Source: Corynebacterium kutscheri (GTDB lineage: Bacteria > Actinomycetota > Actinomycetes > Mycobacteriales > Mycobacteriaceae). Taken from it: a stretch of 64,000 nucleotides of DNA. The notes beneath the pieces are model-generated. The model did not search any database. It was not told the origin of the DNA and saw only the letters and a program-made list of their open reading frames with translations. This document shows positions 24,313-29,297 of the stretch, in pieces. Numbering within the stretch: the stretch's first letter is position 1; each line of letters begins with the position of its first letter. The stretch is from contig NZ_CP011312.1 in NCBI RefSeq assembly GCF_000980835.1, positions 1,736,001 through 1,800,000 on the forward strand, read 5' to 3'. The position numbers and the translations under genes are program-made.

Positions 24313-24407
24313 TAATTCTTATTCCCTAAAAAACCTGTTATTCACAACACGAATACTTTTAACATCAATATCCCCATTTCTTAACAATCATGAAAGAATT
24401 TCTATTC

Positions 24408-24956
24408 ATGAGCACTTTTCTCATTGTCGGTCTTGGTAATCCTGGTTCTGCGTATGCAACTACCCGCCATAATCTCGGCGCTATGGTTTTAGAAGAACTA
24501 GCTACCCGCACCACACCTATGCCGGCAACTTTTAGTGTGCATAAACGATCCAATGCCGCTATTGCTGAATCCAGGCTGGGTGGGCATAAGGTCATTCTGG
24601 CGCAACCACGATCGTTTATGAATCTTTCCGGTGGCCCAGTAAAAGCACTAGCAGATTTTTTCAAGGTCTCTCCTACCCAGACCATTGTGCTTTTCGACGA
24701 CCTGGAACTCGCCTTGGGGCAAATAAAAATTACTCCTGGTGGCGGCGATCATGGGCATAATGGGTTGCGTTCTATTACTAAAGCATTGGGGAAAAACTAT
24801 GTTCGCGCCGGGGTTGGTATTGGCCGTCCGCCAGGTCGCCAGGATGTAGCTAGTTTTGTACTTAAGCCTTTTGCAAAAGCAGAGCTAGCAGAACTACCCA
24901 TTATGTGTACTGATGCGGCAGATGAGATCGAGAATTATTTGTCTACCATTTCCTAG
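24408..24956 (+). CDS. pth: Peptidyl-tRNA hydrolase, copy 1
   Basis: Releases peptides from peptidyl-tRNA that has dropped off the ribosome. The 182-aa protein has all the catalytic landmarks: FLIVGLGNPGSAYATTRHNLGAM (with Asn and catalytic His), QPRSFMNLSGGPV, LFDDLELALGQIKI (Asp) and GGDHGHNGLRSI. The start ATG 24408 is preferred over the upstream in-frame ATG 24390. A second Pth gene lies 4 kb downstream. The stop overlaps the 3' end of the convergent 86-aa gene by 14 nt. Confidence 0.93.
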   Translation: MSTFLIVGLGNPGSAYATTRHNLGAMVLEELATRTTPMPATFSVHKRSNAAIAESRLGGHKVILAQPRSFMNLSGGPVKALADFFKVSPTQTIVLFDDLELALGQIKITPGGGDHGHNGLRSITKALGKNYVRAGVGIGRPPGRQDVASFVLKPFAKAELAELPIMCTDAADEIENYLSTIS

Positions 24957-25203: not shown

Positions 25204-25430
25204 TGGTGGAAGCGGAACTACGCCACCAAAGTATGCCTACCTGAGGAAAATTACTATGCTATGAGGACATCAGAAACAAATATATTGTCCCGAAACTCAA
25301 ATCATCATGCACTAGAATGCAAAGTAGTAGGTACCAAAATCTCTTCTTTCCTGGAAGATGCCCCACAATTTATATTTGACGACAAACATAAATTGACATC
25401 CTTAAAAAGAAAGATAACATCCGTTTTATC
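25204..25430. other. Upstream part of the NYN-gene 5' region
   Basis: Divergent promoter space between the 86-aa protein and the pseudoknot leader. A reading frame is open through it from 25189, but its sequence shows no domain and no ribosome-binding site, so I do not treat it as coding. Confidence 0.45.
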
Positions 25431-25499
25431 AACCCCAGCCGTTGACCCTCCACTGATACGGAGAGCGCCGATGACTGGGGTTAATGCCGTATCAGGAGA
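25431..25499 (+). ncRNA. Predicted pseudoknot leader RNA controlling the NYN-domain gene
   Basis: Four segments pair in interlocking order. A = AACCCCAG (25431-25438) with A' = CTGGGGTT (25475-25482), 8 bp perfect; B = CTGATACGG (25453-25461) with B' = CCGTATCAG (25487-25495), 9 bp perfect. The order A-B-A'-B' is that of an H-type pseudoknot. B' runs into the ribosome-binding site AGGAGA (25494-25499), 4 nt before ATG 25504, so pairing of B with B' would hide it. This is the layout of translation-controlling riboswitches, but I match it to no known class. Confidence 0.5.
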
Positions 25500-25503
25500 A
25501 CTA

Positions 25504-26263
25504 ATGAGTAAGAATAAACTCAATGTAACACCATTTCGGCAAATAACTACTGCCATCCTTGTAGATGGTGGATTCTATCAAAAACGAGCCGCCAAGCTCT
25601 TTGGTCACAAAACACCTGAAGATAGAGCTGATGAACTGGTAGGTTACTGTCGGCGCCATATCAAAAAATCCCGAGCCGGCTTGTATCGCATCTACTACTA
25701 TGATTGTCCTCCATCACAACGCGTTGTATACCATCCATTGCTTCAAAAATCAGTAGACCTAGGAAAAAAACGAACTTTTCACCTGGACAAATGATTTCTT
25801 CAACTCTTTAACAAAAAAGCGAAAAGTAGCGATAAGAAGAGGAGAACCTTTAGAAACTCAAGGTGGTTACATCTTAAAAACAGACCCACTCAAAAAACTG
25901 TGTAGAGGTGCAATAACTATCGACGACCTTACAGAACAAGACTTCACACTTAATATCACGCAAAAAGGTGTTGATATGAGAATCGATCTTGATATTGCAG
26001 CTCTCGCCGATAAACAACAGGTCAACCAAATCATTATGATTTCAGGTGATAGTGACTTTGTTCCAGCAGCAAAACATGCCCGTAGGTCTGGGATTGATTT
26101 CATTCTTGATCCTATGTGGGCACCGATTACCGACAGCCTTAGCGAGCATATCGACGGAATACGACAATGCGTCAAAAAGATACCCGACAATGAAAAAGAT
26201 CCTCTTCATGTGCCTTACCTTGGGGTTCATAACCCCGAAGACGAAAACGAAGAAGAACTCTAA
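25504..26263 (+). pseudogene. NYN-domain (LabA/DUF88-like) ribonuclease-family gene interrupted by a frameshift at an A7 tract
   Basis: The first part runs 25504-25794 and the second continues in another frame to 26263. Start ATG 25504 has AGGAGA 4 nt upstream. The first frame gives AILVDGGFYQKRA (first acidic residue of the PIN-like NYN fold) and YRIYYYDCPPSQRVVYHPL; the second gives TWTNDFFNSLTKKRKVAIRRGE, KGVDMRIDLDIAALA and MISGDSDFVPAAKHARRSG, the core NYN motifs with acidic residues, then FILDPMW and SEHIDGI. Removing one A from the A7 tract at 25764-25770 joins them as LGKNELFTWTNDFF, a 252-aa protein. This can be a true inactivation, a slippage-controlled switch or a sequencing error. 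NYN proteins are nucleases or RNA-binding regulators; the target is unknown. Confidence 0.8.
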
Positions 26264-26694: not shown

Positions 26695-26698
26695 TTGA
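26495..26698 (+). CDS. Possible 67-aa upstream ORF coupled to the permease gene
   Basis: An ORF starting at ATG 26495 with AAGGCG about 9 nt upstream. Its TGA stop (26696-26698) overlaps the TTG start of the permease (26695). The C-terminal half has a hydrophobic stretch (IGAALLHAYFIPLAFICLF). It could be a leader peptide or small membrane protein coupled to the permease, or a chance ORF; no family is recognised. Confidence 0.3.
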   Translation: MNNGQSIYYTINVLDQTSNTAILFFPSYAKPSLTSFYNKRWFKVIGAALLHAYFIPLAFICLFRRAS

Positions 26699-28620
26699 CC
26701 ACCGTAGCGACTACCTCGCTTTCTCATCCCGTCGATCATGTTCCACCCCCACCAAAACTAGCTGCTCTTGGACTACAGCATGTGCTTGCTTTTTATGCTG
26801 GCGCGGTAATCGTGCCATTACTTATTGCGGGCTCCCTTAATCTCGATACCGAAACCACTATCCACCTCATCAATGCTGACTTGCTCACCTGTGGCATTGC
26901 TACCTTGATTCAAACAGTTGGCATTGGCAAGCACATTGGTGTGCGTCTACCCATTATCCAAGGTGTCACTACTACTGCCGTTGCGCCAATTATTGCCATT
27001 GGCTTAAGTGTTACTAATGGTTCTGGTGGAGTGGAATCCTTGCCCACCATTTATGGTGCAGTTATTGTCGCGGGGTTATTTACTTTCTTTGTAACCCCAA
27101 TTTTTGCTAAATTCCTACGTTTTTTCCCACCAGTAGTTACTGGCACTGTTTTGCTGGTCATGGGCACGTCGTTGCTCGCAGTTTCTGCAAATGACTTTGT
27201 CAACTATGCCGAAGGAATTCCTTCTGGGCATGATCTTGGCTATGCTTTTGGCACCTTAACCGTCATTATTTTGGTGCAGCGTTTCTTCCGGGGCTTCTTA
27301 GGCACTTTAGCTATTCTTATTGGTTTGGTTTTAGGCACGCTCATAGCTATTTTGCTTGGCGACGCTTCTATGTCTGCGGTTTCTGAAGCTTCCGTTTTAG
27401 GTATTACCACGCCCTTTTATTTTGGTACCCCAGTTTTTAACCTCTCTGCTATTTTCTCCATGATTATCGTCATGATCATTACCATGGTGGAAACTACTGG
27501 TGATGTGTTTGCCACCGGTGAGATCGTAAAAAAGCGTATCCGCACAGACGATATTAAACGTGCTATTCGGGCAGATGGATTGTCTACTTTCTTAGGCGGA
27601 ATTATGAACTCGTTCCCCTACACTTGCTTTGCCCAAAATGTTGGTTTGGTGCGCATCACTGGTGTGAAATCACGGTGGGTAGCGGTTTCTGCTGCTGGGT
27701 TTATGATTGTACTCGGCCTGCTGCCTAAAGCTGGTGCGATTGTTGCTTCCATCCCAGCTCCAGTACTTGGTGCTGCCTCACTAGCGATGTTCGCCAATGT
27801 CGCCTGGGTAGGTTTACAAACTATCGCTAAAACAGATATGAACGATAACCGTAATGCAGTTATCGTCACCACTGCTTTGGGGCTGGCTATGCTGGTAACT
27901 TTTAAGCCAGAGATCGCCCAAGCTATGCCACAATGGGCACAAATTTTTGTTTCTTCTGGTATGTCTATTGGCGCAGTAACCGCAATTATTCTTAATATTT
28001 TGTTCTTCCATATTGGTCAACAATCTGGCGCTTCTGTAGCACGTAACGCTGCAGGCGAAGGAGTGAGCTTGGCTGAGATTAATGCCATGAACACTGAAGA
28101 ATTTGTTTCTACCTTGCGGCCGCTTTTCAACGACCAAGTATGGCCATTAGAACAGGCTTGGCAAGCGCGTCCTTTTACAGATATTTCTGATTTACGCGAG
28201 GCTATTCAAGTAGCGGTTCTTACTGCCGATGAACACCGTCGAGAAGCATTAATTCATGACTACCCAGATATGGCTGAACTTCTCTTAGCAACTGATTCTG
28301 AAGCAGCCCAGCTAAGTCTAGCTCGGGGATCACTAGGTATTGATGAACTTGATAACGTAGAACAAGAACAAATCAAAGAGATTGCCGATGCGTACCGCGA
28401 GCGATTCAATATGCCTTTTGTTGCCTGTCTTGATACCAATGACACGGTGCACAGCATTATTGATTCCGGGGTACGTCGTTTAGCTAATTCTCCAGAACAA
28501 GAACATCGAGTTGCATTAAGCGAAATCGTGGAGATTGCTAATGATCGCTTCGATATTGTCCTTGCTGATGCCAACCCAGTACGTAGTGCATGGGATCGTA
28601 AATTCACTGAAGTTGAGTAA
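26695..28620 (+). CDS. Purine (xanthine/urate-type) permease fused to an OHCU-decarboxylase-like domain
   Basis: A 641-aa two-part protein. Residues about 15-450 form an NCS2 (UraA/PbuX) nucleobase:cation symporter with FYAGAVIVPLLIAGS, QGVTTTAVAPIIAIG, the substrate/coupling region VETTGDVFATGEIV and the second helix NSFPYTCFAQNVGLVRITGVKSR (the NxGxxxxT-like motif). From residue 465 follows a cytosolic domain with the fold signature of OHCU decarboxylase, the third enzyme of urate breakdown: YRERFNMPFVACL and RLANSPEQEHRVALSEIVEIA. The usual catalytic HPDL reads YPDM (Tyr523) and the usual S-x-x-E-Q reads SEAAQ (Ala538), so the domain is probably not active. Start TTG 26695 with AGGAG 6 nt upstream. 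Confidence 0.82.
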   Translation: MTTVATTSLSHPVDHVPPPPKLAALGLQHVLAFYAGAVIVPLLIAGSLNLDTETTIHLINADLLTCGIATLIQTVGIGKHIGVRLPIIQGVTTTAVAPIIAIGLSVTNGSGGVESLPTIYGAVIVAGLFTFFVTPIFAKFLRFFPPVVTGTVLLVMGTSLLAVSANDFVNYAEGIPSGHDLGYAFGTLTVIILVQRFFRGFLGTLAILIGLVLGTLIAILLGDASMSAVSEASVLGITTPFYFGTPVFNLSAIFSMIIVMIITMVETTGDVFATGEIVKKRIRTDDIKRAIRADGLSTFLGGIMNSFPYTCFAQNVGLVRITGVKSRWVAVSAAGFMIVLGLLPKAGAIVASIPAPVLGAASLAMFANVAWVGLQTIAKTDMNDNRNAVIVTTALGLAMLVTFKPEIAQAMPQWAQIFVSSGMSIGAVTAIILNILFFHIGQQSGASVARNAAGEGVSLAEINAMNTEEFVSTLRPLFNDQVWPLEQAWQARPFTDISDLREAIQVAVLTADEHRREALIHDYPDMAELLLATDSEAAQLSLARGSLGIDELDNVEQEQIKEIADAYRERFNMPFVACLDTNDTVHSIIDSGVRRLANSPEQEHRVALSEIVEIANDRFDIVLADANPVRSAWDRKFTEVE

Positions 28621-28673: not shown

Positions 28674-29297
28674 ATGAGTTTCTTTGATTTCTTACGCTCT
28701 CTTTTTTCTGCTAGTTCTTCCACAACAGAACAACCTGCTGCTGATTGGATTGTGATTGGCTTGGGCAATCCTGGTCCGCGCTACCAATCGACTCGGCACA
28801 ATGTGGGTTATCTTGGTGTCGATGCCCTACTTAATGGGACTGCCCTTGTGCAACGAAAAGGTTTGCCGGTACAAGAAGCACGGATTCGCATTGGGGATCA
28901 GGAAGTATCCGTACTACGTTCCACAACGTATATGAATAACTCCGGGGAAGCTATCGTCCCAATTATGGCTGAAAATGGGTTGAGCCCAGAAAACGTGATT
29001 ATTCTTCACGATGAGCTGGACCTGCCCCAAGGAAAAATTCGTTTAAAAAAGGGCGGCAATGAAAATGGCCATAATGGTTTAAAATCTGCCACCGCGCTTT
29101 TAGGCACCCGGGATTATTTGCGCGTGCGCATGGGAATTTCTCGCCCACCGCAAGGGGTAAAGGTAGCAGATTATGTACTTAGCCCCGTCGAGGATGCTGC
29201 TGTCATGAGTATGTCTCATACTGCTGCCGAGGCCGTAAAAATTATCATTAGCGAAGGTTTGGTCGCAGCCCAAAATAAGATTCATTCTCGTAGTTAA
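28674..29297 (+). CDS. Peptidyl-tRNA hydrolase, copy 2
   Basis: A 207-aa second Pth. It has a 22-residue N-terminal extension (FFDFLRSLFSASSS) before the enzyme core VIGLGNPGPRYQSTRHNVGYLG, then STTYMNNSGEAI, LHDELDLPQGKIRL and GGNENGHNGLKSA, with catalytic Asn, His and Asp present. The two copies differ widely outside the motifs, so they are old paralogues, as in C. glutamicum, which also has two. The ATG at 28674 follows GGTGAAAATCCT without an ideal ribosome-binding site. Confidence 0.9.
   Translation: MSFFDFLRSLFSASSSTTEQPAADWIVIGLGNPGPRYQSTRHNVGYLGVDALLNGTALVQRKGLPVQEARIRIGDQEVSVLRSTTYMNNSGEAIVPIMAENGLSPENVIILHDELDLPQGKIRLKKGGNENGHNGLKSATALLGTRDYLRVRMGISRPPQGVKVADYVLSPVEDAAVMSMSHTAAEAVKIIISEGLVAAQNKIHSRS

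Follow-up and report, generated by a model that had tools for sequence, protein, structure and literature searches.

Introduction

Among described systems, the nearest tested precedents of the locus reported here are AbiF-RCd22 and the pseudo-ToxI of phage TE. AbiF-RCd22 combines an Abi_2 toxin with an abiF-motif RNA in a C. difficile prophage; in the available part of its report (PMC12373285), a promoter is followed by a short structured RNA, a Rho-independent terminator and the toxin gene, which is reached by read-through, the RNA motif precedes the gene in several species, and the RNA silences the toxin both in cis and in trans. The same portion of text presents the type III toxin-antitoxin systems ToxIN, CptIN and TenpIN as co-transcribed pairs of an RNA gene and a toxin gene with a terminator between them and a role in phage defence (PMC12373285); type III antitoxins consist of tandem repeats. 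Phage TE, as far as the accessible sections of PMC3475682 describe it, carries an antitoxin-like RNA (pseudo-ToxI or hijacked ToxI) without a toxin to evade ToxIN. Further likenesses exist with BstA, a defence gene of prophages whose own locus contains a short element for self-immunity, aba (PMC8585504, available part), and with a CRISPR-associated NYN ribonuclease, which cleaves single-stranded RNA in a Mn2+-dependent manner and works in type III CRISPR, no partner hairpin being described in the portion of PMC11346440 at hand.

Here we analyse a stretch of 64,000 nucleotides from Corynebacterium kutscheri (NZ_CP011312.1, positions 1,736,001 to 1,800,000; henceforth the window), in which a conserved hairpin RNA lies directly before an NYN-domain gene. 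Like AbiF-RCd22, this hairpin/NYN module is prophage-borne, has a comparable order of parts and recurs before its gene in several species; it differs in its protein (NYN here, Abi_2 there, by Pfam), in its RNA, which does not match RF03085 and is a single hairpin instead of the two motifs described in the part of PMC12373285 at hand, and in that silencing was demonstrated there and is proposed here. With the type III systems it shares an RNA gene directly upstream of a nuclease gene under one predicted promoter, a likeness of layout, and a presumed role in phage defence. By contrast, its RNA is not a tandem repeat and its protein is not ToxN, CptN or TenpN, Pfam giving NYN (PF01936) only. Because protein family and RNA both differ and tandem repeats are lacking, the features tested would place the module in neither AbiF nor type III toxin-antitoxin. 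The parallel with phage TE concerns two phages that carry the RNA without the NYN gene; evasion was demonstrated for TE, whereas Escherichia phage BSBP01 and Shigella phage vB_Shi_2KOFFS are known as sequences. The aba element is reported to be DNA-based (PMC8585504, in the same part), unlike the element here, for which covariation argues for RNA, and the protein is a different one; the CRISPR-associated enzyme shares with our module an NYN nuclease in a defence setting.

In the open-access literature (subscription papers and bioRxiv being outside the scope of the search), we found no paper linking NYN proteins to type III toxin-antitoxin or an RNA antitoxin, and none combining NYN, noncoding RNA, anti-phage and toxin; NYN proteins may have been mentioned as toxins in earlier work. 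We consider it probable, if well short of assured, that the locus represents a new, type III-like anti-phage module made of an RNA antitoxin and an NYN nuclease, the RNA of which has been captured by some phages.

Results

A putative hairpin RNA gene upstream of an NYN gene

Our best reading of the conserved element listed in Table 1 is that it is a gene for a hairpin RNA, has a promoter of its own and would form the RNA half of an RNA-hairpin/NYN-nuclease module. RNA folding of positions 25428-25486 predicts a single long imperfect hairpin (-24.8 kcal/mol, z -4.46). An alignment (A1) of 24 of the 30 loci L002-L031, omitting the near-duplicates L006, L009, L010, L023 and L024 as well as L012, which was missed by the pattern, has an 8-bp base helix (P1), near-invariant inner strands and a 4-bp upper helix (P2). 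The both-sided changes in P1 (Table 1), with 98.6% of all cells paired, were reached by none of 500 shuffles, and shifting the P1 partner by one column lowered pairing to 47-61%. P2 varied little (1 of 4 pairs), and in a locus from a Microbacteriaceae bacterium (L267) it reads GCCC/GGGC in place of CUCC/GGAG.

Table 1. Coordinates of the hairpin/NYN locus, counted from the first position of the window.
Feature	Position	Strand	Details
Predicted promoter	25393-25420	+	-35 TTGACA 25393-25398, 16-nt spacer, -10 TAACAT 25415-25420; 10 of 12 consensus matches
Conserved hairpin RNA, whole motif (52 nt)	25431-25482	+	covariance-model matches
P1, 5' strand (strand A of the preliminary description)	25431-25438	+	AACCCCAG; both-sided changes in 7 of 8 pairs
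Near-invariant inner strand, 5' side	25439-25447	+	CCGUUGACC; alignment A1
P2, 5' strand	25448-25451	+	CUCC; alignment A1
P2, 3' strand	25460-25463	+	GGAG; alignment A1
Near-invariant inner strand, 3' side	25464-25474	+	AGCGCCGAUGA; AGYGCCGAUGA across alignment A1
P1, 3' strand (strand A')	25475-25482	+	CTGGGGTT; pairs with 25431-25438, 8 bp
Helix B of the preliminary description	25453-25461 / 25487-25495	+	CTGATACGG / CCGTATCAG; present, 9 bp, overlaps P2
Shine-Dalgarno of the NYN gene	25494-25499	+	AGGAGA; outside the conserved hairpin
NYN gene, N-terminal part	25504-25794	+	broken; frame changes where the two parts overlap
NYN gene, C-terminal part	25766-26263	+	other frame; Pfam NYN PF01936

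Searching the 242 genomes of the genus with a covariance model gave 46 strong matches (E <= 1.3e-10) spread over 45 of them, with a single strong motif per locus and a wide gap before the next match (25.6 bits); in a draw of 401 genomes from the family, nothing in other genera exceeded 27.2 bits. With blastn, 42 of the 242 genomes gave a match, most spanning ~25428 to ~25482, i.e., the hairpin without strand B', and two of the 42 were not the motif by the covariance model (in G227 the match falls outside the hairpin, in G191 it is a fragment of 25 nt). No Rfam family exceeded its gathering cut-off in the window or in 16 viral loci, and of the permissive scans one gave three sub-threshold matches, all outside the hairpin, and another none; a structured RNA without an Rfam match before an NYN-domain gene, in line with the preliminary description, is borne out. 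A tRNA or tmRNA gene at the hairpin was looked for and rejected. We also rejected the possibility that the NYN protein extends further at its N-terminus: in the window the frame upstream is indeed open, but in relatives this stretch covaries as RNA.

The preliminary description went further and proposed an H-type pseudoknot, in which P1 (its helix A) interlocks with a second helix, B, that runs into the ribosome-binding site and might act as a riboswitch-like ON/OFF switch of translation. Both pairings are present and perfect in the window (8 and 9 bp), and AGGAGA does lie 4 nt before the start codon (ATG at 25504). None of 300 shuffles reached the 9 bp of helix B, which is unlikely to have arisen by chance in the window's sequence. 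For positions 25428-25504, the minimum-energy structure is the hairpin without helix B, whereas the centroid structure instead shows most of helix B; given this centroid and the shuffles, helix B may form in the window's transcript. Across loci, the two helices fare differently. Helix A is kept in 46 loci with both-sided changes, far above chance, and the covariation expected of it among related corynebacteria was found; helix B, for which we required a perfect complement of at least 8 bp linking the 18-nt apical segment to the 35 nt that follow the stem, is present in 1 of the 46 and is probably fortuitous. It also competes with P2, i.e., the CTCC/GGAG pairing that had been regarded as an alternative and which is the conserved upper helix. 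Moreover, the Shine-Dalgarno sequence lies outside the conserved element, contrary to a switch at that site, and the downstream gene is broken. Judged by the loss of either helix from homologous leaders, the pseudoknot falls with helix B and the RNA itself stands; we regard the pseudoknot model as very improbable.

The promoter-like sequence would place the start of transcription near 25428, hence not downstream of 25440, the limit named in the preliminary description. The -10 box begins 11 nt before the start of the model in the window, the most frequent distance among the 46 loci, and 9-18 nt before it at the others. Promoter scores of at least 9 of 12 were found in 23 of the 46 loci versus 1 of 322 control positions. 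The sequence after P1 tends to be T-rich in the Corynebacterium loci (at least 4 T within 8 nt in 26 of 46, against a background of 72 of 920); in the window itself, the U-tract is poor.

Association of the RNA with NYN proteins

The NYN family (E <= 1e-8) was detected in 28 of the 242 genus genomes, each of which has the hairpin immediately before the gene. A simple test scored NYN as intact in 16 of these loci and as broken in 12, including that of the window, where the NYN domain of the preliminary description is present and an intact gene is not. In another actinobacterial family, 3 of 60 genomes carry NYN, each with the hairpin in front (3 of 3), and the hairpin and NYN pair is also present in the Microbacteriaceae bacterium (L267); a class-wide draw of 325 genomes contained the NYN family in only one genome besides that of the window.

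The protein matches Pfam NYN (35.4 bits; cut-off 24.2) and no other Pfam family, and it has no PDB sequence match and no NCBIfam match. Ten Asp or other acidic-type positions are invariant in 39 NYN homologues, among them D24, D160, D166, D185 and D187, which we take to be catalytic. The family comprises 6044 proteins at E<=1e-10, and those from phages belong to PHROG 5783, which is listed with unknown function. PADLOC 2023 returned only weak matches, for two proteins (NYN, E 0.001 and 8e-5; HEC-09, E 0.0017), and no clear match to an anti-phage protein listed there. The NYN protein is a likely partner of the structured RNA.

The 46 loci are spread over 27 gene neighbourhoods, which argues that the pair is mobile or often re-acquired. 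One genome (G131) has two copies of the hairpin far apart, one with NYN and one without. In the window, two similar genes (24390-24956 and 28674-29297), presumably pth-like, bracket a variable stretch that holds a small basic protein, the RNA and NYN, and a permease; the last (26695-28620) is a xanthine/uracil-type permease fused to an OHCU decarboxylase domain. In a relative (G230), ~280 nt separate two pth-like matches, and none of the other window genes tested has a match in this interval; this is not a clean empty site, as the window has further extra genes between the pth-like pair.

Related modules in phages, plasmids and other phyla

Using the NYN protein as a tblastn query, we obtained 15 phage records and 165 plasmid records (136 of the latter from Campylobacter), and a scan of viral contigs gave 34 loci. 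In the leaders of these 34 loci and of nine named phage or plasmid records, a related hairpin precedes NYN in most cases, and many such hairpins in the prophages and plasmids of other phyla carry a U-tract. By a simple score, 27 of 31 distinct leaders from outside the actinobacteria have a terminator-like hairpin ahead of NYN, versus 47 of 173 control ORFs (27%). For at least five leaders that pass (L385, L392, L393, L405 and L418), the top-scored hairpin differs from the presumed motif; the four leaders that fail are L388, L412, L417 and L422.

For alignment A2, we combined L424 and L427 with 17 of the 31 leaders above. All 12 of its pairs have both-sided changes and 91.1% of cells are paired, counts that lean towards the motif because the 19 rows were selected for an AGUA-like core; an additional inner pair also covaries, and the letters of the inner loop are fixed in these phage and plasmid leaders. 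The alignment omits L384, L386, L388, L390, L391, L393, L420, L422, L425 and L426, as well as the E. coli/Proteus/Pseudomonas-like type (L396, L398, L400, L405, L418 and L419). The E. coli/Proteus type and a Thermus plasmid have the same layout with a different inner sequence.

The fixed letters bear on the simplest alternative, namely that the element is a plain terminator or insulator hairpin before a horizontally moved gene. A stem with a U-tract, as seen in many leaders, would fit it; such a hairpin accounts poorly for inner-loop letters fixed both in corynebacteria and in the aligned phage and plasmid leaders, for a promoter-like sequence right before the hairpin, and for the orphan copies and RNA-only phages described below, and we deem this alternative extremely improbable.

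Pattern and similarity searches delimited these types. A AGUAAGCC-type pattern was present in six viral stretches, with NYN behind it in four (L383, L423, L424 and L426, L423 and L385 being one contig); in L425 and L427, the available sequence contains no NYN. Among the 80 matches listed from a genome-wide pattern scan, mostly chance matches, at least five were real loci by the model, including L267; of 100 viral stretches found with the first pattern one was real (L200), and a narrower actinobacterial pattern returned L200 and one chance stretch (L213). In INPHARED, blastn with the motifs of the window, L200 and L267 gave no match, an L396-type leader gave nothing and a Javan85-type leader matched only two Javan phages; the window motif had no blastn match in PLSDB.

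As for gene neighbourhoods, both coliphage ev099 and Proteus phage Brookers have NYN beside a LexA-type repressor; in ev099, NYN sits between this repressor and an N-like gene, which we take to be the place of rex in lambda. In Javan85, NYN lies next to an integrase. On a Thermus thermophilus plasmid (L420), NYN (1501-2214) lies between helicase-related and N-6 DNA methylase genes, as in a defence cluster. Just downstream of NYN in the viral contig L384 is a skipping-rope RNA (RF02924; 4719-4796, + strand, 75.2 bits), i.e., a second structured RNA neighbours the module there. The NYN leader of a Campylobacter jejuni plasmid (L422) has no clear motif, and this relative may use another control.

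Copies of the RNA without an intact NYN gene

The hairpin stands before a broken NYN in 12 of the 46 loci and occurs without NYN (within ~6 kb, or less at contig ends) in 18. A whole-genome search of the genomes with such orphan loci found no NYN except in G131, and the contig of one orphan (L110; G058:C51) has no NYN in its whole 10,255 bases. In an alignment of 13 of the 18 orphans plus the viral contig L200 (A4, 14 rows; omitting the near-copies L091, L099, L112 and L122, and L127, a decayed relative of L125), 7 of the 8 P1 pairs still covary and 97% of cells are paired, although part of this covariation may date from before the loss of NYN. In 8 of 11 compared locus pairs, neither the promoter nor either flank was more conserved than the motif; the promoter surpassed it in L099/L112 and L115/L122, and L125/L127 is decaying. 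Promoter scores of at least 9 were found in 7 of the 18 orphans, poor ones (4-6 of 12) in L098, L103 and L127. Since L125 and L127 look decayed and some orphan promoters are poor, the orphans may in part be remnants. At two orphans (L095 and L104), a gene resembling by eye a tyrosine recombinase lies at 1.2-1.6 kb, a neighbour that suggests a prophage or other mobile DNA.

A comparable pattern is seen in E. coli, where the leader of coliphage ev099 was found in 274 of 5426 genomes, and leader plus NYN at a cover of at least 80% in 73. Among the 30 E. coli matches listed, 20 end after 437-444 nt of the 941-nt leader-plus-NYN query, and seven of these 20 are named O157:H7, including Sakai (NC_002695.2, prophage Sp1). 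In the genomes with short matches, the leader is kept intact while the NYN match stops early.

Phages that carry only the RNA

A search of INPHARED with the ev099 leader returned nine records. Six of these records, which represent four distinct phages because two were deposited twice, have NYN, as does Proteus phage Brookers. Phages BSBP01 and vB_Shi_2KOFFS match only the ~62-nt hairpin, with 98.4% identity to the ev099 leader, and are absent from the 15 NYN-carrying phage records obtained by tblastn. Both belong to the Chaseviridae (Cleopatravirinae), which are lytic phages. The region around the BSBP01 hairpin has 47 similar records; the hairpin (L439:3001-3062) replaces a tRNA gene of two aligned relatives, GJ1 and TH24 (L441 and L442), which in GJ1 is annotated as tRNA-Arg and called tRNA-Leu by ARAGORN. 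Small RNA genes may be exchanged at this site. The motif also occurs in the viral contigs L200, L425 and L427, whose available sequence contains no NYN; this absence was judged on 3.6 of 93 kb in L200 and 12.4 of 27 kb in L427, and the upstream side of L425, which begins at the motif, lies outside the sequence. The hairpin of L425 (1-32) is ~160 nt from a tRNA-Lys gene (191-272).

These observations can be weighed against an RNA that acts in cis only, as the preliminary description supposed. As an attenuator, the hairpin, alone or bound by NYN (i.e., in autoregulation), would limit read-through or translation and have no role in trans. Its position directly before NYN in 28 of 28 NYN genomes of the genus set, the U-tract typical of attenuators and an inner-loop sequence so fixed that it suits a protein-binding site all accord with this. 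Against it, the RNA persists without NYN in 18 of 46 loci, seven of which have a promoter score of at least 9, and before a broken NYN in another 12, and two phages have the hairpin on its own, one of them in place of a tRNA gene. We therefore think a role confined to cis unlikely.

Alternatively, the hairpin may be an independent small RNA, i.e., a regulator, or a substrate or cofactor of NYN, whose main role is not to silence the protein; NYN would then process the RNA or use it as a guide or activator. The RNA is indeed commoner than NYN (45 versus 28 of 242 genomes), and the CRISPR-associated NYN enzyme is proposed, in the available part of PMC11346440, to trim RNAs. Yet a motif as patchy as this one (45 of 242 genomes, 27 neighbourhoods) is unlike a housekeeping RNA, and phages with the RNA alone fit inhibition or a decoy better than activation, which makes an independent role quite unlikely in our estimate. 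Such phages suggest instead that the RNA may serve as an antidote to the nuclease.

Discussion

Given the layout, the prophage and plasmid homes, the frequent breakage of NYN, the orphan RNAs and the phages with the RNA alone, we favour an RNA antitoxin that acts on an NYN nuclease directed against phages. In the proposed mechanism, RNA polymerase would start ~3 nt before the stem and most transcripts would stop after it, where a U-tract follows in many non-actinobacterial relatives, leaving an excess of free RNA, while rare read-through would yield the NYN mRNA. The RNA would fold as P1, the fixed-sequence inner loop and P2, and in this form may bind and silence the NYN ribonuclease, similarly to the RNA antitoxins of type III toxin-antitoxin systems and AbiF. 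Infection would then disturb the balance of RNA and nuclease, such that NYN is freed and phage growth halted; phages with the RNA alone would be protected. In the window, the RNA half of this putative module is intact and the NYN half broken.

A broader version holds that RNA-silenced NYN nucleases are a widespread anti-phage defence of prophages and plasmids in Actinobacteria, Firmicutes, Proteobacteria and Thermus, that other phages have captured the RNA as an antidote (once at a tRNA site) and that bacterial lineages have kept it after losing the nuclease. We regard this wider proposal as about as likely as not.

If the antitoxin reading is true, a new RNA family, absent from the Rfam searched, and a new class of nuclease would join the few defence systems with RNA antitoxins, and a function would be offered for a large family of NYN proteins. 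The RNA-only phages would represent a natural, RNA-based counter-defence that can be tested in coliphages and E. coli K-12, and NYN genes would gain a partner that is invisible to protein annotation.
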